Shown: positions 1-9,438 of the stretch, one piece after another
Position numbering within the stretch: position 1 is the stretch's first letter
How the letters are laid out: each line of letters begins with the position of its first letter
DNA from: Candidatus Eisenbacteria bacterium
GTDB taxonomy: Bacteria > Eisenbacteria > RBG-16-71-46 > SZUA-252
Direction of reading: 5' to 3'
Assembly (NCBI GenBank): GCA_005893275.1
Contig: VBOW01000017.1
Coordinates: 1 to 64,000 of the forward strand
DNA: 64,000 nucleotides
Notes under the pieces: model-generated
Seen by the model: the letters and a program-made list of their open reading frames with translations, nothing else
Databases searched by the model: none
What the model was told of the DNA's origin: nothing
Translations under genes and position numbers: made by a program

Positions 1-109
1 CAAACATGCACTTCGTCGGACGCCAATCGAGACGGGCGCGCCGGCGTGGGGGCGCGCGCCGTGTTGGGCTCGGACACCGCTGGGTCCGATGCTGTGGGAG
101 CGGTTGCCG

Positions 110-1111
110 TCACTTGCCGGTCACCTCGGTCGTCAGCGAGCAGTCGGCCAGGTGCATCGCGTCGGCCATCGCGACGAGCACTTCGCGTGGCCCCTGGAAG
201 GGCTCCCTGCCGTGCGCGGTGCGGATGTTGTCCACGAGCATCAGGTCGCCGGACTGCCAAGGCTCGCGTACGGTGTTTGCCTCATAGACTTGGTTGATCA
301 CCTGCACGACATCCGCGCCGATCGGGTCGCCATCGCCGAAGCGGGTATTGAACGGCAATCCGTCCTCACCGCAGATGTCCACGAGGTACTCGCGCACCTC
401 CGGCTCGATCGTCCACTCGCTGAGGAAGGCGATCTGGTTGAACCAGCACCGCCGGCTGGTGAGCGGGTGAGCCATAACCGCGCTGCGGCGCTGCCAGGTG
501 CGCAATGCGCCGTCGGGTTGCCACTCGAACCGGATCGCGTTGGCACGACAGTAACTCTCGACGGCGGAGCGGTCGTCGGTCCCGAACGCTCCGGCGATCG
601 ACGCCCCGATGTCGTCGTTGTAGTTCCGGATCAGGAGCCAGCCCACCCTCTCGAAACGCTCGACCAGCTCGGCGGGGAGCGCGTGAAGCACGGTCGGCGA
701 GTCGGCCACCGGGGTAGCGCCCCCGGCCGTTGGCGCCATGAGGCAGGCGAACAGCATGAGGCCGGGGACCTGGAGCGCATAGCTGAGCTCGTGGTGCATG
801 CACATGGGCTGGTTGGGGGGCCACTTCGACGAGGAGTACACGCCGTTCGCGTAGCTTCGCCGCGGCGCGAACGCCTCCCGCTCGGTCATCAGGCCGCCCA
901 GCTGCCGAAAGACCGCCTCGGTCTCGGCCGCGTCGCGCAGCCCGAGACCGCGAACGAGGAGGGAACCGTGCTCGACGACGAGGGCGCGCAGCGCGTCGCG
1001 GTGCTCCGCCGCCCAGCGCGGCGCGCCGCCGGTTGCCTCGGCTTGGAGCATCGGCGGTTTTCCAGGTCGCCGGTCCACGTGGAGCTGTGAGGTCGGGGGT
1101 GAGGTCGACAT
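110..1111 (-). CDS. TauD/SyrP-like Fe(II)/2-oxoglutarate dioxygenase
   Basis: Predicted 333-aa non-haem iron, 2-oxoglutarate-dependent oxygenase of the TauD/TfdA family. The facial triad is visible as His106 and Glu108 in MHHELSY and a distal His near residue 300 in DNIRTAHGREPF, whose following Arg (about 302) would bind 2-oxoglutarate. SyrP-like relatives in NRPS clusters hydroxylate the beta-carbon of an amino acid tethered to a carrier domain. Its place as the last gene of the NRPS operon, 12 nt after the adenylation-carrier gene and with an AAGGGG Shine-Dalgarno before the ATG, suggests the same kind of job here, but the substrate is inferred. The cluster may continue left of the window. 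Confidence 0.85.
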   Translation of the reverse strand: MSTSPPTSQLHVDRRPGKPPMLQAEATGGAPRWAAEHRDALRALVVEHGSLLVRGLGLRDAAETEAVFRQLGGLMTEREAFAPRRSYANGVYSSSKWPPNQPMCMHHELSYALQVPGLMLFACLMAPTAGGATPVADSPTVLHALPAELVERFERVGWLLIRNYNDDIGASIAGAFGTDDRSAVESYCRANAIRFEWQPDGALRTWQRRSAVMAHPLTSRRCWFNQIAFLSEWTIEPEVREYLVDICGEDGLPFNTRFGDGDPIGADVVQVINQVYEANTVREPWQSGDLMLVDNIRTAHGREPFQGPREVLVAMADAMHLADCSLTTEVTGK

Positions 1112-1123
1112 CTCGATTCCCCT

Positions 1124-3646
1124 TCAGGCGCTGCCGTTCTGGGAGCGGCGCTCGGCCCTGCCATCGATCAGCGTGGCCAGGTCGGCTAGGATCGGGTGGT
1201 CGGTGAGGTCCTTCAAAGACACCGCACGATCCAAGGTGATCACCAGCTTCAGGGCCGACAGCGACGTGCCGCCCAGGTCGAAGAAGTGATCGCGCCGGCC
1301 GATCTCGTACTTCGCGATGCCGAGCACCTCCGCCCACGCGGCCGCCAGCCGCTGCTCGGTCGCCGTGCCCGGCCCGTCGCGGTCCTGCTCGGCGACATCG
1401 AGTTCTCCGGCGAGCGCCGTCAAGGCCTTCCGGTCGATCTTGCCGTTCTCCGTCAACGGCAGCTCTCTCCGCCAGTGGAAGGCTGATGGCACCATGTACT
1501 CGGGCAGAGACTCACTCAACCGGTCCCGCAGCGCGTTCGCATCGAGCGGTCGCTCTCCGGAATAGAAGGCCAGGAGGCGCCTGCCTTGGTCGACCCGCCC
1601 GGTGACCACGACGGCGCAGTCGCGGACGCCATGCAAGCGCAGCAGGGTGTTCTCGATCTCGCCGATCTCGATCCGGAAGCCGCTGATCTTGACCTGGGTA
1701 TCCCGGCGGCCGAGGAACTCCAGCTTGCCTTCGGGAAGCCAGCGGCCATAGTCGCCGCTCCGGTACAGGCGGCGCCCCTCACGGTGTGGATCGGCCATGA
1801 AGGCGCGTCGCGTGCGTTCGGAATCGTTGATGTACCCACGGCCGACGCACACCCCGGAGAATACGATCTCACCGGGCGCGCCGAGCGGTACGGGTGACAT
1901 GTGCTGGTCCACAACGTAAACGTGCACATTGTGGATCGGGCGACCGAGAGGAACCCGCTCCCGGTCGGGCGCGCGGTCCATGACCTCGTGATTGGTGTCG
2001 TCCGAGGTCTCGGTGAGCCCGTACGCGTTGACCAGCTTGATCGCAGGCTGGGTCGCGAACCAGCGTTGCACGAGCTCCTTCTTCACCGCCTCGCCCGTGA
2101 CCGAGACGCAGCGCAGATCCGGGAGCTCGCGGGGGCGCAGCGTCAGATACGACAGGACGACTTCGAGGTAGGACGGCACGACCTGAACGACGGCGACCCT
2201 GCCGCCCACGATCCTGTCGAGGAAACGCTCGGCGTCCAGGACGGCCTCCTGTTCGACCAGCAGCGTGCGCCCACCCACCAGGAGCGCGGAGACCAGTTGC
2301 CAGAGCGAGATGTCGAAGCACTGGGGTGCGGTCTGGGCCACCACGTCGCCCTCGCCGATGCCCAGGTCATGGATCTTGGCGCAGACGTGGTTCAGCATGC
2401 CCGCGTGCTCGCACATCACGCCCTTGGGCTCACCGGTGGAGCCGGAGGTGAAGTAGACGTAGGCGAGCTGGTCGGCGAAAACGCGGACACCCAGATCGAC
2501 GTCGGCGTGGTTTTCCTCGTGGACGGTGTCGACGTAGAGCGTCTGGACTCCGGACATCGACTCGAGCGCGCGGTCGAGCGTCGCCGTGCTGCCGCGTTCG
2601 GTCACCACGAGCCGGCACCCGGCCCGGGAGAGCATCCTCGCGATGCGATCGGCCGGGAAACGGGGCTCGATCGGCAAGTACGCGCCGCCCGCCTTGAAGA
2701 TGGCGAGCACCGCGGCCATCCAGTCCAGGTTGCGCTCGGTCGCCACGGCGACTATGCCTTCGCGGCCGAGCCCTCGCGCCAACAGGGCTCGCGCCAGCTG
2801 ATTGGCACCGCCGTTGAGCTGCCGGTAGGTCCAGTGACGGTCGCCGTGCACGGCCGCGATGGCGTCCGGGTGTGCACGGACGCGCTCCTCGAACAGTTCG
2901 TGGACTCGGCGGTCCGGCAGCTTCCTGCGCGGGCCGGCGAGACCATCGAGATGGAATCGCAGCTCCTCGCCGGAGAGCAGGCTCTGCCGCGCGTGCTCGG
3001 CATCCGGGTCGGCGGCGACCCAGGCGAGCGCCGTAATGTGATAGCCGGCGATCCTCATGGCGCACTCCGCGTCCAGCACGTCCGTTCTGTGGCGCAGCCG
3101 GATTACGATCCCGTCCCGTTCCTCGATGCCGACCCGGAGGACGGTGCCCTCGGCGAGCTCGCCACGGGCGGCGGCCGTCGGATCGAAGACGGTCTCGAAC
3201 AAGGGCTGGGTGAGGCCCAGCTCACGCCCGAGATCCTCGACCGCGAAGTCGGCGTGCGACAGCAGCTCCACCTCGGCTCGGTGCGTTTCCAGCAGCATCG
3301 CCCGCCAGGAGTGCGGTTCGGTCGTCATCCGGCAGAGCAAAGGCGAGCGGCCCTGCGGGGCGACATAGCCGGTCGAGACCTCGCGCTCACCCGAAAGAGC
3401 GGCCAGGACCTTGGCGTGCGCGGTCAGCAAGACCGAGCTGAACGACACCCCCAGCTCGTCCGCCAGACGGCGCAATGCCGCCACGAGCTCGTCGGGGATC
3501 CTCGACTCGTGTTCGCCCACGCCGGTCGCCGGCTCACGGGTCCACCGCGGAAGCACGGTGAACGGACCGGCGAGAAGCATGCGGCGCCAGAATTCCCGGC
3601 CCCGCTCCGCGCGGGTGCCCGTGTCCCGCAGTCCGAGGCTGCTCAT
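1124..3646 (-). CDS. NRPS: truncated condensation lobe - adenylation - carrier
   Basis: An 840-aa protein. Residues 10-230 resemble only the C-terminal half of a condensation domain; no HHxxxDG motif is present. Residues about 245-745 form a full adenylation domain: A3 YFTSGSTGEPKG, A4 FDISLWQ, A5 NAYGLTE, A7 RLYRSGDYGRW, A10 LTENGKIDRK with the catalytic Lys near 736. A carrier domain follows with the phosphopantetheine Ser near 795 in LGGTSLS. Aligning by eye to GrsA, I read specificity residues D-I-W-Q-S-T-A-D-D-K, a code I cannot assign. No thioesterase. The ATG at 3646 is preferred over the longer ORF (to 3673) because it follows AGGGAG and lies 1 nt after the upstream stop. The neighbours suggest L-Dap or a related amino acid as substrate (inference). 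Confidence 0.9.
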   Translation of the reverse strand: MSSLGLRDTGTRAERGREFWRRMLLAGPFTVLPRWTREPATGVGEHESRIPDELVAALRRLADELGVSFSSVLLTAHAKVLAALSGEREVSTGYVAPQGRSPLLCRMTTEPHSWRAMLLETHRAEVELLSHADFAVEDLGRELGLTQPLFETVFDPTAAARGELAEGTVLRVGIEERDGIVIRLRHRTDVLDAECAMRIAGYHITALAWVAADPDAEHARQSLLSGEELRFHLDGLAGPRRKLPDRRVHELFEERVRAHPDAIAAVHGDRHWTYRQLNGGANQLARALLARGLGREGIVAVATERNLDWMAAVLAIFKAGGAYLPIEPRFPADRIARMLSRAGCRLVVTERGSTATLDRALESMSGVQTLYVDTVHEENHADVDLGVRVFADQLAYVYFTSGSTGEPKGVMCEHAGMLNHVCAKIHDLGIGEGDVVAQTAPQCFDISLWQLVSALLVGGRTLLVEQEAVLDAERFLDRIVGGRVAVVQVVPSYLEVVLSYLTLRPRELPDLRCVSVTGEAVKKELVQRWFATQPAIKLVNAYGLTETSDDTNHEVMDRAPDRERVPLGRPIHNVHVYVVDQHMSPVPLGAPGEIVFSGVCVGRGYINDSERTRRAFMADPHREGRRLYRSGDYGRWLPEGKLEFLGRRDTQVKISGFRIEIGEIENTLLRLHGVRDCAVVVTGRVDQGRRLLAFYSGERPLDANALRDRLSESLPEYMVPSAFHWRRELPLTENGKIDRKALTALAGELDVAEQDRDGPGTATEQRLAAAWAEVLGIAKYEIGRRDHFFDLGGTSLSALKLVITLDRAVSLKDLTDHPILADLATLIDGRAERRSQNGSA

Positions 3647-3647
3647 C

Positions 3648-6122
3648 TCACATCTCCCTGGCCGGGTTTCCACCCCAGCGCGCGTGTGCCGGCACCTCCT
3701 CTCCCTTCATGAGAAAGGAGTGGGCGGCGAGAACGGAGCCGTCACCCATCGTCACTCCGTAGTGGACCAGCGCGCCGACGCCAATCGTGCAGCCGGCACC
3801 AATCGTGGTGTGGTCGGATTTGAAGGTGGCGTCCTCCTGTGAGTGGCATTGGATATGGCTCCCGTTGTTGAGCGCGCAGTGGTCCCCGATGGTGGCGAGC
3901 GTTCGCTCGGGTATGTGGGCGCCGTCGTCAAAGACCCTCCTGCCGATCCGAACCCCCATCAAACGCCAGAGGAAGGTCTTGTACGCGGTGCCGTCGAAGG
4001 AGTGGAGGTAGTCCATGGCGGGCACCTTCCACAGGCGCTCGTACAGCCAGAACCGCGGGTCGTAGATGGAGCAGTAGATGGGCCCGAGCGAACGGAATCC
4101 GACCAGGCAGCGCTCCACCAAAATGAAATACAACGGGCTGACCAAGAGGCTCGCCGCCAGGAGCCCGACCGTGGCCAGATGTCCCGCCACGTCGTAAAGC
4201 GCGAAGGCGGGAAGGTCCAGCAGGGCGACGATGAAGACGCCGAGCCACCGCGCGAAGAGGAAGATCCCCATGGTGCGGATATTGTGCCGGTTCTTGGCCG
4301 CAAGGCGGCGGGGGAACTCCTCCCCGATCCGAAGATGATCGAATCGGGTGTCCCGGTCGACGGTTCGTGGAATCTCGAAGCAGGGTGAGCCGAGCAGGCC
4401 TGTGTTCTCGCGAATCGCGCCGTCCAGCGGAACCATCACCTTGGTCGCCAGCAGGCAGTTGTCGCCGGTCCGGTCTCCCGGTGGATAGGTGACGCCATTG
4501 CCCAGGAAGCTGTGCGGCCCGATCGATACGCGAGACACGCAGAACGACGTGCTCGAGACTTCGTCGTTGATGATCGCCAGCGCGTCGGCGACCATCGTGC
4601 CGGTGCCGACGGAACACAAGTGGGGGTTTGCCTGCCACACCGAGGTGCCGAAGTTCGACCCGGTCTGCTCGACCGGGGACAGGCGGTACCCCAGCCAGCT
4701 CAGATAGTGGACGATGTAGGAGCTGTCGCCGAACAGACGGGCGAAGAGCTTGATGTTGCTCACGCGCGTGATCGCCCGCTGTACCCTGTCGTGGAAGCCA
4801 TATAACGGATAGACCCTGTCCGGCTCGACAAACAGGTTCAAAAGGCGAGGGATCGTGACCACGAGGGGCAGGCCGATGAGAACGGCGCCGAAGACCAGAA
4901 TCAGCGAGAGTTCCAGTGCGTCGATCGAGAGCTCCCGTAACGTCAAGACGCCGACGCCTGCGGCACTCGGATGCAGAAGCCTTGCCAGCGACGGCACGAC
5001 CTGCGCGAGCAGGTACGGAGTCCCCTCGAGGAACGGCAGGTACACGAGGAAGACCAGGAGCAGCGTGCCGGCGGAGAAGGAGACCCGTCGCAGCGTGCCG
5101 CAGGGCATTGGCGCGACTCTCAGGTAGTCCACCTCCGTGCGCTGTGCCGGACATCCATGCCGTCGCTCGCCGGCGGGTATCGCCTGGCCGCTGTGCAGCG
5201 CTGAGGCGTGACCGAGTTGCGCCCCATCCCCCATCGACGTGTCGATGTCGAGCACAGTCTGCTCGCCGATGAAGGCGTCCCGGCCGACCGTGACCCTTCC
5301 GGTCTCGATTCGACCTGCATGCGCCCGGTAGCACTGGAAGAACGACTCCCTGCGAATGATCGTTCCCGCGCCGATGGTGAGCAGGTCGGTGCATACCGGT
5401 ATTCGGCGGGAGAAGATCGCGACGCCCGAGCCGATCTTCGCGCCGAGCGCCCTCAGGTACAGCGCGTAGATAGGAGAACCGACGAACAGGAGGGCGCACG
5501 GGTTCGCCCGGATCAAGGTCTTGACGAACCAGAAGCGGACGTACGCCAGGCTCCAGAGACGGATCCTCCCGGGCTTCCAGCGACCGATGAGCACCCATTT
5601 CGCCAGGATCGGCACGCTGCACACGACGAGAAAGGTCGCGGCGCCGCATAGCACGAGCCGCAAGTAGATCTCGACCATGTCCGGGGCCGCGGAGATCCAT
5701 TCGTAGGCCAAGCCTGCGCCGAGCACGGCAAGGTAGGAATAGCCGAGAAACGACAGGAGCTGCAGCACTCCACAGGCGACGTACTCCAACCTGCTCGCCG
5801 GTGCGACCGCCTCGGTCGGTGCCGGCACCGGCGACTGGACAGCGCGGGGCTCGGCGTCGGCGAGCGCTGCTGCAAGGCTCCGGATCGTCGGATGCCGGTA
5901 GACGTCCTGCATCGATATCGACGGCAGGTCCCCTCGCTTCCTCACCCGCGCACAGAAATGGGCCATCACCAGGGAGTCGGCGCCCAGCTCCTCGAAGAAG
6001 TGGCGATCGACCGGCACGCGGTCGACGCCCAGGACACCCGCCAGCACTTCGGCGAGGACGCTCTCGGAGCTAAGGGTGGCGGCGCGGCGCCGCTCCTCGA
6101 TCACCGTCGATTCAGGGTTCAT
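3648..6122 (-). CDS. Pls-type membrane NRPS module: carrier - (TM-LbH)x3
   Basis: An 824-aa protein. An N-terminal carrier domain (about 18-90) has Ser50 in ELGADSLVM. Three repeats follow, each a pair of hydrophobic segments and a hexapeptide-rich, left-handed-beta-helix-like unit: TM about 112-180, LbH about 228-325; TM about 348-432, LbH about 485-585; TM about 617-675, LbH about 715-822. This layout matches the C-terminal part of poly-epsilon-lysine synthetase and the NRPS terminal domain family, where tandem acyltransferase-like domains in the membrane join monomers. In Pls, adenylation and these domains are one chain; here adenylation is on the next gene. The start overlaps the sbnB-like stop as ATGA. 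It is probably an inner-membrane polymerase or peptide-bond-forming component; the product is unknown. Confidence 0.85.
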   Translation of the reverse strand: MNPESTVIEERRRAATLSSESVLAEVLAGVLGVDRVPVDRHFFEELGADSLVMAHFCARVRKRGDLPSISMQDVYRHPTIRSLAAALADAEPRAVQSPVPAPTEAVAPASRLEYVACGVLQLLSFLGYSYLAVLGAGLAYEWISAAPDMVEIYLRLVLCGAATFLVVCSVPILAKWVLIGRWKPGRIRLWSLAYVRFWFVKTLIRANPCALLFVGSPIYALYLRALGAKIGSGVAIFSRRIPVCTDLLTIGAGTIIRRESFFQCYRAHAGRIETGRVTVGRDAFIGEQTVLDIDTSMGDGAQLGHASALHSGQAIPAGERRHGCPAQRTEVDYLRVAPMPCGTLRRVSFSAGTLLLVFLVYLPFLEGTPYLLAQVVPSLARLLHPSAAGVGVLTLRELSIDALELSLILVFGAVLIGLPLVVTIPRLLNLFVEPDRVYPLYGFHDRVQRAITRVSNIKLFARLFGDSSYIVHYLSWLGYRLSPVEQTGSNFGTSVWQANPHLCSVGTGTMVADALAIINDEVSSTSFCVSRVSIGPHSFLGNGVTYPPGDRTGDNCLLATKVMVPLDGAIRENTGLLGSPCFEIPRTVDRDTRFDHLRIGEEFPRRLAAKNRHNIRTMGIFLFARWLGVFIVALLDLPAFALYDVAGHLATVGLLAASLLVSPLYFILVERCLVGFRSLGPIYCSIYDPRFWLYERLWKVPAMDYLHSFDGTAYKTFLWRLMGVRIGRRVFDDGAHIPERTLATIGDHCALNNGSHIQCHSQEDATFKSDHTTIGAGCTIGVGALVHYGVTMGDGSVLAAHSFLMKGEEVPAHARWGGNPAREM

Positions 6123-7132
6123 CGCACGACCTCGTAGAAGAAGTCCGACAGGCGCAGGTCCCTGCCGGCGGCGACCGCTTTGTCATACACCCACTTGCCG
6201 ACCGCCAGGTCGAGCATCCCCATGCCGAAGGGCGAGAAGATGATCGGACGGCTGCGATCGACAAATCGGCGTTCGAGCATGATGTCGGCAAGCGTGCCCG
6301 ACACGAAGCTTCTGTCTCCCGTCCGCTTCTCGGCGAGATGGGGAGAGGTGTTCGCCTTCATGACGTGCTCGACGTCGTCCACCACGTTCTGCGACCTGAG
6401 GAGGATCTCGGGTGCTAGATCGCGAAGCGAAATATGCAGCACCAACGGGTTGTGTTCGAAGAGGGCAGGGTCGGTGATGTAGGGCGTCGAAGCCACGGTC
6501 GTGAAGACGATCAGATCGCAGGCCCTGACGAGTTGTGCCACGTCGGGGACAATCGTGACCGTGCGGTGCCGCTCGGGACGGCAGGCGGTGTTTCTGAACT
6601 TCTCGCTCTCGAGAGGCACCAGGTCGTACAACCGTACTTCCTCGATCGCCCACCCCGTGTCGATCAGGAACTCGTAGACATACCGGGCGATGAACCCGGT
6701 GCCCACGATTCCCAGCGAGCGGGCCCGCCGCGATCGCCCCCCCAGCCAGTGCGCGGCGAGAACGGCCGAAGCGGCTGTCCGTGAGGCCGAGATGATCGAA
6801 CTCTCGAGTATGGCAAAGGGGTAACCGGTGTCGTAACGATTGAGCACGAGGACGGCCGAGGCACGCGGAAAACCTCGCTGGACGTTGCCGGGGAAACTGG
6901 CGATCCACTTCAGCCCGGCCACGTCGAAGCCGTCTCCCAGGTAGGCAGGAAGCGCGATGATCCGGCAATCGGGCTTGTCGGAGAACCGCAAGAAGTAGCT
7001 ATCGGGGTTGACGGACCGTCCGTTGGCGTGCGTGAGATACGCCCCCCGCACGATCTCGATGCATTCCTCCCGATCGGCGCGGATGATGTCGGAGACGGTC
7101 TTACCATTGATGATCGAAAGCTCGAACGGCAC
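6119..7132 (-). CDS. sbnB: SbnB-like N-(2-amino-2-carboxyethyl)-L-glutamate dehydrogenase
   Basis: A 337-aa member of the ornithine cyclodeaminase/mu-crystallin family, close in length to SbnB. A Rossmann motif GIVGTGFIAR lies at 141-150, and the substrate Lys appears around residue 75 in GLKWIASFPGN. SbnB oxidises the SbnA product with NAD+ to release L-2,3-diaminopropionate and 2-oxoglutarate. The ORF is open far upstream inside sbnA, so I chose the GTG at 7132, which follows an AGGAGGAGG run just after the sbnA stop (7141) and gives the family N-terminus. It ends in an ATGA overlap with the membrane NRPS gene. The tight pairing with the SbnA homologue supports the Dap role over a cyclodeaminase role. 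Confidence 0.88.
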   Translation of the reverse strand: MPFELSIINGKTVSDIIRADREECIEIVRGAYLTHANGRSVNPDSYFLRFSDKPDCRIIALPAYLGDGFDVAGLKWIASFPGNVQRGFPRASAVLVLNRYDTGYPFAILESSIISASRTAASAVLAAHWLGGRSRRARSLGIVGTGFIARYVYEFLIDTGWAIEEVRLYDLVPLESEKFRNTACRPERHRTVTIVPDVAQLVRACDLIVFTTVASTPYITDPALFEHNPLVLHISLRDLAPEILLRSQNVVDDVEHVMKANTSPHLAEKRTGDRSFVSGTLADIMLERRFVDRSRPIIFSPFGMGMLDLAVGKWVYDKAVAAGRDLRLSDFFYEVVR

Positions 7133-7140
7133 GCCTCCTC

Positions 7141-8223
7141 CTACTCGAGCCTGGACACCCAGCTCGCATCGAACACCGTGTCGAGATATGCCGTACCGCG
7201 GTCCGCGCACAGGAACAGCACGGTGGGCCGCTTGGACCTTGTCATCTTCTCCGAGTAGCGCTTGATGGCCGCGAACGCGGACCCGCTGGAGCCGCCGGCG
7301 AACAATCCATGGATCGTGAGGAGTTCCCGGCACGCCTGAATGGCCTCGCGCTCGGGAACCAATACGACGTCGTCGATCTCGGCATGCGACAACAACGGTG
7401 GGACGATGCTCGACCCGATGCCCGGAATATGACGTTTGCGGGGCGCCCCGCCGAAGATGACGGAACCTTCCGTATCGACGGCGATGACCCGAACGTTCGG
7501 ATAGCGCTCCTTGAGGCGGCGCGACACCCCGGCGATCGTTCCCCCGGTGCTGACGCCGATGAAGACATAATCGAGCGAGTCGAAATCGGCGCAGATCTCG
7601 CCCGCCGTGAGCTCGTAGTGCGCCTCCATGGCGTCCAGATTTCCGTACTGGTTCGTCCAGTACGGGTTCGGAACGGTGGCGCAAAGATGCTTCACCATCT
7701 CCAGGCGGGTCTTCAGAAATCCGCCCGTGTCGTCCAGGTCCTCGACCTTCACCACCTTTGGGCAGATGCGCCGGAGGAACGACTCGTACGTGCTGGAAAT
7801 CTTGGGGTCGATAACCGGGATGAATTTCAGGCCGACCAGGTGAGTGAAGGCTGCGAGAGCGGCGGCGAAATTCCCAGAGGAGGATTCGATCACCGTCGTC
7901 TCGTCGCGGATCTCACCTCGCTCGGCGGCTCGCTTTAGGATCCAGTAGGCGGAGCGGTCCTTGATGCTGCCAACCGGGTTGACATACTCCAGTTTGGCAA
8001 ATAGGTGGATGCCCTTCATGGCCAATGGCACGTGCGGGGTGGGTCGTAGCAGATTGCCCAGCAGTTCCAAGCGCGCGGCGAGAGGTGAGGGCGGACCGGC
8101 GGTCGGGAGGCCGACCCGGTCCGTTTCTATTCCAAGTCGAGATTCGAAGGGGGCCCATTTGCGAGATACCCTGCCCAATTGCGAAATGGGCGTCCGTGTC
8201 GATGTGCCATTGTGCCGAGGCAT
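7141..8223 (-). CDS. sbnA: SbnA-like PLP enzyme, L-Dap precursor synthase
   Basis: PLP-dependent fold-type II enzyme of the cysteine synthase family. The PLP Lys is in NPVGSIKDR, the substrate loop is SSSGN, and the phosphate cup is GVSTGGTIAG. SbnA condenses O-phospho-L-serine with L-glutamate to N-(2-amino-2-carboxyethyl)-L-glutamate, the SbnB substrate. This is the first gene of the operon. The start is uncertain: the ORF runs to 8331, but the ATG at 8223 leaves an inverted repeat (8262-8278) upstream of the gene. The 360-aa product is still longer than SbnA (about 326), and no good Shine-Dalgarno is seen, so the true start may lie further downstream. A generic cysteine synthase is possible but less likely next to sbnB. 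Confidence 0.85.
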   Translation of the reverse strand: MPRHNGTSTRTPISQLGRVSRKWAPFESRLGIETDRVGLPTAGPPSPLAARLELLGNLLRPTPHVPLAMKGIHLFAKLEYVNPVGSIKDRSAYWILKRAAERGEIRDETTVIESSSGNFAAALAAFTHLVGLKFIPVIDPKISSTYESFLRRICPKVVKVEDLDDTGGFLKTRLEMVKHLCATVPNPYWTNQYGNLDAMEAHYELTAGEICADFDSLDYVFIGVSTGGTIAGVSRRLKERYPNVRVIAVDTEGSVIFGGAPRKRHIPGIGSSIVPPLLSHAEIDDVVLVPEREAIQACRELLTIHGLFAGGSSGSAFAAIKRYSEKMTRSKRPTVLFLCADRGTAYLDTVFDASWVSRLE

Positions 8224-8278: not shown

Positions 8279-8357
8279 ACCCCGCGCGCACCGCATTCTC
8301 GCGATGGCAGCGGGACCGATGTACAAAACACTCGCGCTGTAGGTGGCGAAAGGCATT

Positions 8358-8739: not shown

Positions 8740-9438
8740 TCAGCGTCGCGAACCTTTCAGGGCCACGCAGCACGTTCCCGCGTGTGGAGCGAGCCTCGCT
8801 CGCACCCCCTTCACTCCAAGACCAGCGAGTAGACCCTCGATCAACGCGAGATTCATCGGGCAAATCAGGTCTCTGGACTCGGTCCGGAGCGAATCGAAGG
8901 GGCAGTTGCGTAGCACTACTTCGCCTTCACCGCCGGTCGTTCCCTGCGGTTCAAAGCCGAGGGCCTTCAGCGCCCGCGCCGCCCGGCTGAGGGGGCCGCC
9001 CCGTCCTGTGCCCGCAGCGGATTCCTCAGCCAGCCGCTTGCCACATTCGCGGGCCGCGTTTCGCAGCGCCTCCAGCGTGGCGCCGGCTCCCGCCTTGGCC
9101 AGCGCGTGGGCGAGTACGTGCGCAGCAAGCTCGTAGCGGCGCTGCGGGAGGCTCACGTCGAACTGTGCGGAAGAGCGGCGGTAGAGCTTCGACGGGCGCC
9201 CGGCGCCTGGACCCTTGCGACCCGAGAGCCTGCGGAACGTGGCTTGTAGGAGGTCCGCTTCCACAAGCTTGTCGAGGTGGAAGGCCGCCAGAGCGCGAGA
9301 CACCCGCGTCGACCGGGCCGCCTCGTCCCGACTGACATCCCCACCCCGCCCGACCACGTACAGGTAGAGCTTCCGGCGAACCGGCTCGTCGAGAGCCGCG
9401 AGACCTTCCAGCTGTTTGGCGAACTCCTTGGAATTCAT
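8740..9438 (-). CDS. Winged-helix regulator with SufR-like cysteine domain
   Basis: A 232-aa predicted transcription factor. The N-terminal about 90 residues form an ArsR/DeoR-like winged helix (SRDEAARSTRVSRALAAFHLDKL), followed by a basic GRPSKLYRR wing. The C-terminal domain holds Cys in NCPFD, ICPMN and GTCCV, spaced C-X13-C-X29-CC, like the iron-sulfur-binding region of SufR-type repressors. It may therefore sense iron-sulfur status, redox or a metal. It is divergent from the DoxX-like gene at 9627 with 188 bases between, so that gene is the likeliest target. Target and ligand are inferred. Confidence 0.8.
   Translation of the reverse strand: MNSKEFAKQLEGLAALDEPVRRKLYLYVVGRGGDVSRDEAARSTRVSRALAAFHLDKLVEADLLQATFRRLSGRKGPGAGRPSKLYRRSSAQFDVSLPQRRYELAAHVLAHALAKAGAGATLEALRNAARECGKRLAEESAAGTGRGGPLSRAARALKALGFEPQGTTGGEGEVVLRNCPFDSLRTESRDLICPMNLALIEGLLAGLGVKGVRARLAPHAGTCCVALKGSRR

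Follow-up and report, generated by a model that had tools for sequence, protein, structure and literature searches.

A split relative of the Pls/PosA synthetases encoded with L-2,3-diaminopropionate genes and a dioxygenase in Candidatus Eisenbacteria: a candidate source of a modified cationic isopeptide

Here, we propose that an operon of Candidatus Eisenbacteria, an uncultivated soil bacterium, encodes a split relative of the Pls/PosA synthetases, loaded in trans, which would build a short cationic isopeptide from L-2,3-diaminopropionate (L-Dap), probably in an oxidised form. We put the probability of this reading at roughly 0.55. It is based on the genes and domains found, their intact motifs and their conserved linkage, all read from sequence; from these we infer the site and chemistry of the oxidation, the order of loading, the formation of the bonds, and the length and release of the product.

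Among non-ribosomal peptide synthetases (NRPSs), the known producers of cationic homopoly-amino acids are the Pls-type enzymes, whose membrane domain forms bonds by a mechanism still unsolved. We draw a distinction between what is known here, namely the sequence homology of the polymerase to Pls and PosA, and what is new: a polymerase split from adenylation, the absence of the D-x-E pocket, and a TauD gene within the operon. A description of the split form was not found in the open-access papers searched, and subscription papers could hold one.

The operon and its stand-alone polymerase

The window (the whole stretch of 64,000 nucleotides analysed) starts with base 1 of contig 17 in a genome of 2.88 Mb. 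Reading downwards from position 8223 on the minus strand, the genes encode an SbnA homologue, an SbnB homologue, an 824-aa polymerase and an 840-aa adenylation-carrier protein, followed by a dioxygenase of the TauD family and the truncated beginning of a phosphopantetheinyl transferase (PPTase). The first five genes all lie on this strand, where the sequence-only reading had located the operon, and the TauD gene and the PPTase start are operon members beyond those it had first named. Junction sequences show the SbnB stop overlapping the polymerase ATG and the TauD stop overlapping the PPTase GTG, and a GGAGGAGG site precedes the SbnB GTG at 7132. The PPTase, of Sfp type (1..113, minus strand; GTG at 113, frame ending LASDEVHV), is incomplete because the contig starts at window base 1. 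All six genes are complete and in unchanged order at locus L031 of the relative G006, where a full PPTase orthologue (PF01648) occupies the same place. In a same-genus relative the polymerase is 86% identical, and pairwise dN/dS against one relative is 0.15-0.32 for five genes, which are therefore under purifying selection and not chance frames. Upstream of SbnA on the same strand lies a gene for a helix-turn-helix protein (8740-9438), probably outside the operon, since the G003 and G006 copies have other genes there.

The polymerase (3648..6122, minus strand) is a stand-alone carrier-membrane-LbH (left-handed beta-helix) protein with no adenylation domain. Its residues 116-821 match TIGR02353, described by NCBI as the 'Pls/PosA family', across the entire profile (positions 1-695 of 695; 729 bits, cut-off 423). 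The carrier (PP-binding) domain that precedes this region (residues 22-87; 5862..6059, minus strand; PF00550, 44 bits) is conserved, with Ser50 invariant in 40 homologues. In the AlphaFold2 model (40 rows, pLDDT 84.6, pTM 0.86), the polymerising domain (3660..5777, minus strand), also delineated by hydropathy, has three membrane-helix pairs (residues 111-179, 343-429 and 602-673), each leading into an LbH unit. Foldseek searches with these units returned hexapeptide acyltransferases, the best solved matches, and LpxD/CysE, and found no solved structure matching the 824-aa polymerase over its full length. Thus the earlier description, a carrier plus three transmembrane/LbH units like the polymerising part of Pls, holds from end to end; the LbH units, which might have turned out to lack any similarity to Pls, are unambiguously Pls-type by both profile and model.

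How does this compare with characterised synthetases? In Streptomyces albulus PD-1, poly-Dap is made by PDAPs, a fused synthetase whose single 4,338-bp gene covers adenylation, carrier and membrane regions, with the L-Dap genes (NjxA/NjxB) not close by and no dioxygenase reported (PMC4668381). The window operon shares with PDAPs and NjxA/NjxB an SbnA/SbnB-like pair, a carrier plus a membrane domain of three soluble units, and the lack of a complete condensation domain; it differs in having activation on a second protein, another pocket, a single operon for all the genes, and the dioxygenase (PMC4668381). With the delta-poly-L-ornithine synthetase PosA and the CHPA family (PMC10522769) it shares the TIGR02353 domain, the predicted three-unit fold and, as PF00550 and Ser50 attest, a carrier with a modifiable serine before the membrane domain. 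By sequence, the window polymerase is homologous to the CHPA polymerases and should work alike. However, CHPA proteins are fused and carry Asp and Glu at code positions 1 and 3 (PMC10522769), whereas the window polymerase stands alone and the code beside it begins DIW. Lacking both a fused adenylation domain and a D-x-E pocket, the system is not filed as a CHPA synthetase, and since the CHPA network survey kept only proteins between 1100 and 1800 residues long (PMC10522769), split polymerases of some 820 residues fell outside it.

Supply, activation and oxidation of the amino acid

The SbnA homologue (7141..8223, minus strand; ATG at 8223, alternative GTG at 8331), a PLP enzyme of L-Dap synthesis, scores 409 bits against TIGR03945 (cut-off 350), and the adjacent SbnB homologue, the second enzyme of L-Dap synthesis (6119..7132, minus strand; GTG at 7132), scores 436 bits against TIGR03944 (cut-off 327). 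Both therefore exceed curated equivalog cut-offs, in agreement with their first identification. S. aureus SbnA is the best solved-structure match of the window SbnA, in which the PLP lysine K124 and the serine-rich loop SSSGN are near-invariant (47 rows). Within the phylum, SbnB above the cut-off occurs in only three genomes, precisely those with the split polymerase, and adjoins it; a chance neighbourhood was thus rejected. In the Streptomyces copy tested, SbnA and SbnB pass the same cut-offs, with SbnA only about 35% identical to that of the window and the gene order different. The pair is lost or decayed at two Rokubacteria loci, where SbnB is reduced to a remnant (L100:5817-6125 and L073:9793-9894); another copy of the locus in the L100 genome (L076) keeps an intact SbnB.

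Adenylation is, as had been read, on a separate protein (840 aa; 1124..3646, minus strand; PF00501, 272 bits) that has the AMP-binding region, the C-terminal part belonging to it, and a carrier domain of its own (1166..1354, minus strand; GGTS motif; PF00550, 41 bits). Its first approximately 230 residues are the C-lobe of a condensation domain, lacking the catalytic HHxxxDG lobe (2954..3610, minus strand; matched by profile-profile comparison to columns 187-442 of a two-sequence condensation profile, with probability 95.9). The adenylation domain (1439..2893, minus strand) yielded, on code extraction, DIWQSTADDK, a code found in 47 homologues, with DIWQSTTDDK in 4 more. Glu at code position 3 is conserved in characterised homopolymer synthetases, and a Phe2/Glu3 pattern has been reported for poly-Dap and poly-Dab synthetases (PMC10522769). 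The window pocket has no Glu at position 3; fused homologues mostly have D-x-E codes, DFECLSVVTK being the commonest. The DIW pocket, and the half condensation domain that precedes the adenylation domain, led us to reject the idea that a Pls-type adenylation domain had simply moved to its own gene.

Text searches of the literature for adenylation codes gave no match and no biochemical reference for DIWQSTADDK. To see what DIWQSTADDK may select, codes were compared by genomic context, at 40 other Streptomyces loci with SbnB above the cut-off and no split system, reading the domains within about 10 kb of SbnB. Nine loci had DIWE[M/L/I/V]TADDK, in ten domains altogether, and one domain had DIWQATCDDK. 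Together, related codes (DIW[E/Q]...DD) make up 11 of 42 domains (10 loci) near SbnB against 0 of 82 in control NRPSs (20 stretches away from SbnB, from some of the same genomes; Fisher p = 2.5e-6, an optimistic value that treats loci as independent when some are orthologous). The resemblance of DIWQSTADDK to this group enriched beside SbnA/SbnB points indirectly to L-Dap as the likely substrate of the adenylation protein, and its code gives no indication of an amino acid unrelated to Dap, the outcome that would have told against the earlier reading. DIWE[M/L/I/V]TADDK and DAWQ[F/C]ATIDK both recur beside SbnA/SbnB in Streptomyces (L162-L201), and could predict Dap incorporation.

The dioxygenase (110..1111, minus strand; PF02668, 151 bits) is an Fe(II)/2-oxoglutarate enzyme of the TauD family, with its facial triad (H106, E108, H300) conserved in 49 homologues and the 2-oxoglutarate arginine R309 conserved as well. 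Foldseek matched it to 1y0z (E 2.5e-25), and structure matches beyond At3g21360 were generic, with no substrate indicated. TauD beta-hydroxylases such as PtcA act on carrier-bound amino acids (PMC7100376), and interface domains have been named for siderophore NRPSs (antiSMASH 8, PMC12230676). The window operon resembles both in that its TauD protein is paired with an adenylation-carrier protein whose condensation-like segment lacks the catalytic lobe. Unlike with PtcA, the substrate would be Dap and not Asp, and the segment is half a condensation domain, which may serve as an interface by analogy.

At two loci that lack the polymerase (L155:7604-13355 and L161:5429-11075), SbnA, SbnB and TauD stand together with the same adenylation protein, its code again DIWQSTADDK; at L155 they adjoin ordinary condensation-domain NRPS genes. 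The set is thus a portable donor module, and the joint occurrence of TauD and the adenylation protein without the polymerase suggests, as a matter of gene content, that TauD partners the former and not the latter. Beta-hydroxylated Dap is an unstable carbinolamine. Since the product of plain beta-hydroxylation would be unstable, desaturation or oxidation at another position is possible as the chemistry of TauD on Dap.

Distribution and evolution of the split form

One scan of named genomes gave 80 loci, of which about 55, in Rokubacteria, Acidobacteria and actinomycetes, have a stand-alone polymerase followed by the closely related adenylation protein. A TauD gene is present at 48 of the 55 split loci, most of the others ending at contig ends, and is absent from all sixteen loci that have a fused adenylation-carrier-polymerase gene in or near them. 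The gene set is found in Eisenbacteria, Rokubacteria, Acidobacteria, a betaproteobacterium and about a third of 199 Streptomyces genomes. Across 69 of these Streptomyces genomes there are 76 TauD genes (at least 60% identity), 69 of them within 9 kb of a TIGR02353 gene. Seen from the other side, TauD lies within 9 kb of 69 of the 77 Streptomyces polymerases without room for an adenylation domain, compared with 1 of the 72 that have room. As the arrangement recurs in both the 80-locus scan and the Streptomyces genomes, a single-genome oddity was rejected.

In the polymerase tree, the sequences from Eisenbacteria, Rokubacteria, Acidobacteria and the betaproteobacterium group together as one clade with support 100, nested among the split polymerases of actinobacteria, and fused polymerases lie towards the base. 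The nesting of this clade points to horizontal transfer of the split polymerase. Some loci are possible evolutionary intermediates. At L094:8879-12511, a split-type polymerase beside a separate adenylation protein keeps a truncated adenylation domain without its C-terminal part, and at two Pseudonocardia loci (L106:4904-12469 and L114:4208-12472) a fused synthetase (adenylation, carrier, LbH) directly adjoins a split polymerase, of which it is possibly a partner.

Variation extends to the adenylation protein and to the polymerase. At 24 actinomycete loci, mostly in Streptomyces (including L077:12560-15814), the adenylation protein is extended at its C-terminus by about 250 residues, which at L077, the copy tested, form a thioesterase domain (PF00975); adenylation proteins of the soil clade have no such extension. 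The earlier statement that there is no thioesterase stands for the window operon and L031, and may not hold for the many Streptomyces copies that have the extension. Orphan carrier-membrane-LbH proteins occur at five loci (L099, L101, L107, L115 and L129), where no adenylation, Dap or TauD gene like those described here was recognised in the stretch examined. Shorter proteins with the last TIGR02353 LbH unit only are encoded in genomes of the same family (L033, G003:C48:4229-4612; L040, G007:C242:1494-2081).

Proposed mechanism, other products and significance

In light of these findings, what might the operon make? SbnA and SbnB would make L-Dap, and the PPTase would convert both carrier domains to the holo form. 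The adenylation protein would then activate L-Dap and load two carriers, its own and, in trans, the one on the polymerase. TauD would oxidise carrier-bound Dap, possibly docked by the half condensation domain that precedes the adenylation domain, and the polymerase, with its three membrane/LbH units, would link the Dap units by amide bonds. A Dap polymer or oligomer had already been put forward from the sequence, a reading partly supported by the Pls-type units and the Dap-like code; what it had missed is a tailoring step. TauD accompanies the split form in nearly all complete copies and hardly ever the fused one, which makes a modified product more probable than the plain poly-Dap known from S. 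albulus.

SbnA and SbnB serve staphyloferrin B biosynthesis, and the window pair is likewise adjacent, although the operon has no siderophore synthetases. One option is thus that the product is a small defined Dap molecule, such as a metallophore or a dipeptide antibiotic, with the LbH protein carrying out one or two acyl transfers and no polymerisation. We consider this unlikely, although it is the alternative that fares best. In its favour are the role of SbnA/SbnB just described, the donor module adjoining an ordinary NRPS at L155, the C-terminal extension of many Streptomyces copies with its thioesterase at L077, and the fact that TauD beta-hydroxylases are typical of siderophore NRPSs (PMC7100376). 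However, the only candidate bond-forming domain is a full three-unit TIGR02353 domain. In addition, no siderophore synthetase, transporter or uptake gene was found at L031 and none recurs across loci, although the gene calling for that comparison was crude and makes it weak evidence; clustering of the neighbourhoods beyond the core likewise yielded weak negative evidence only, the simple gene caller giving mostly antisense frames. The absence of a siderophore synthetase, as claimed from the first for the window operon, extends to the complete copy at L031, and with no uptake genes there either, a staphyloferrin B-like siderophore operon was rejected as the first choice.

It is more doubtful still that the two carriers serve to assemble dipeptide units, Dap-Dap or its oxidised form, which would be polymerised into a branched, comb-like product. 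Two carriers for one adenylation domain would suit such a scheme, as would the tandem fused and split synthetases of Pseudonocardia, and a comb-like Dap polymer from a Streptomyces is cited in two papers (PMC10522769, PMC9606270). Against this, the genes for that polymer were not found in the literature searched, and the window clade has one polymerase and only half a condensation domain.

In the Dlt system, activation and membrane transfer are separate. A similar separation in the window operon, and an adenylation domain that is distantly DltA-like (below the DltA cut-off), could suggest that Dap units are transferred onto a polymer of the cell envelope, much as by DltA-DltC-DltB, with the membrane protein as transferase, yet this is very improbable for a Pls-type triple LbH protein, which is not an MBOAT, in an operon found alike in Gram-positive actinomycetes and in uncultivated Rokubacteria, Acidobacteria and Eisenbacteria.

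Returning to the proposed trans-loaded synthetase of a modified isopeptide, a form split by nature would allow separate assays, protein by protein, of activation, carrier loading and polymerisation, and the conserved dioxygenase suggests a product other than ordinary poly-Dap. The gene set is common and has no product assigned in the literature searched, so that a frequent metabolite may have been overlooked. Thus, we tentatively suggest, at somewhat less than even odds, that Streptomyces and several uncultivated soil phyla share an unrecognised and widespread class of polyamino-acid synthetase, in which a split polymerase would be fed enzymatically oxidised Dap in trans and would produce a modified cationic isopeptide of a new type.
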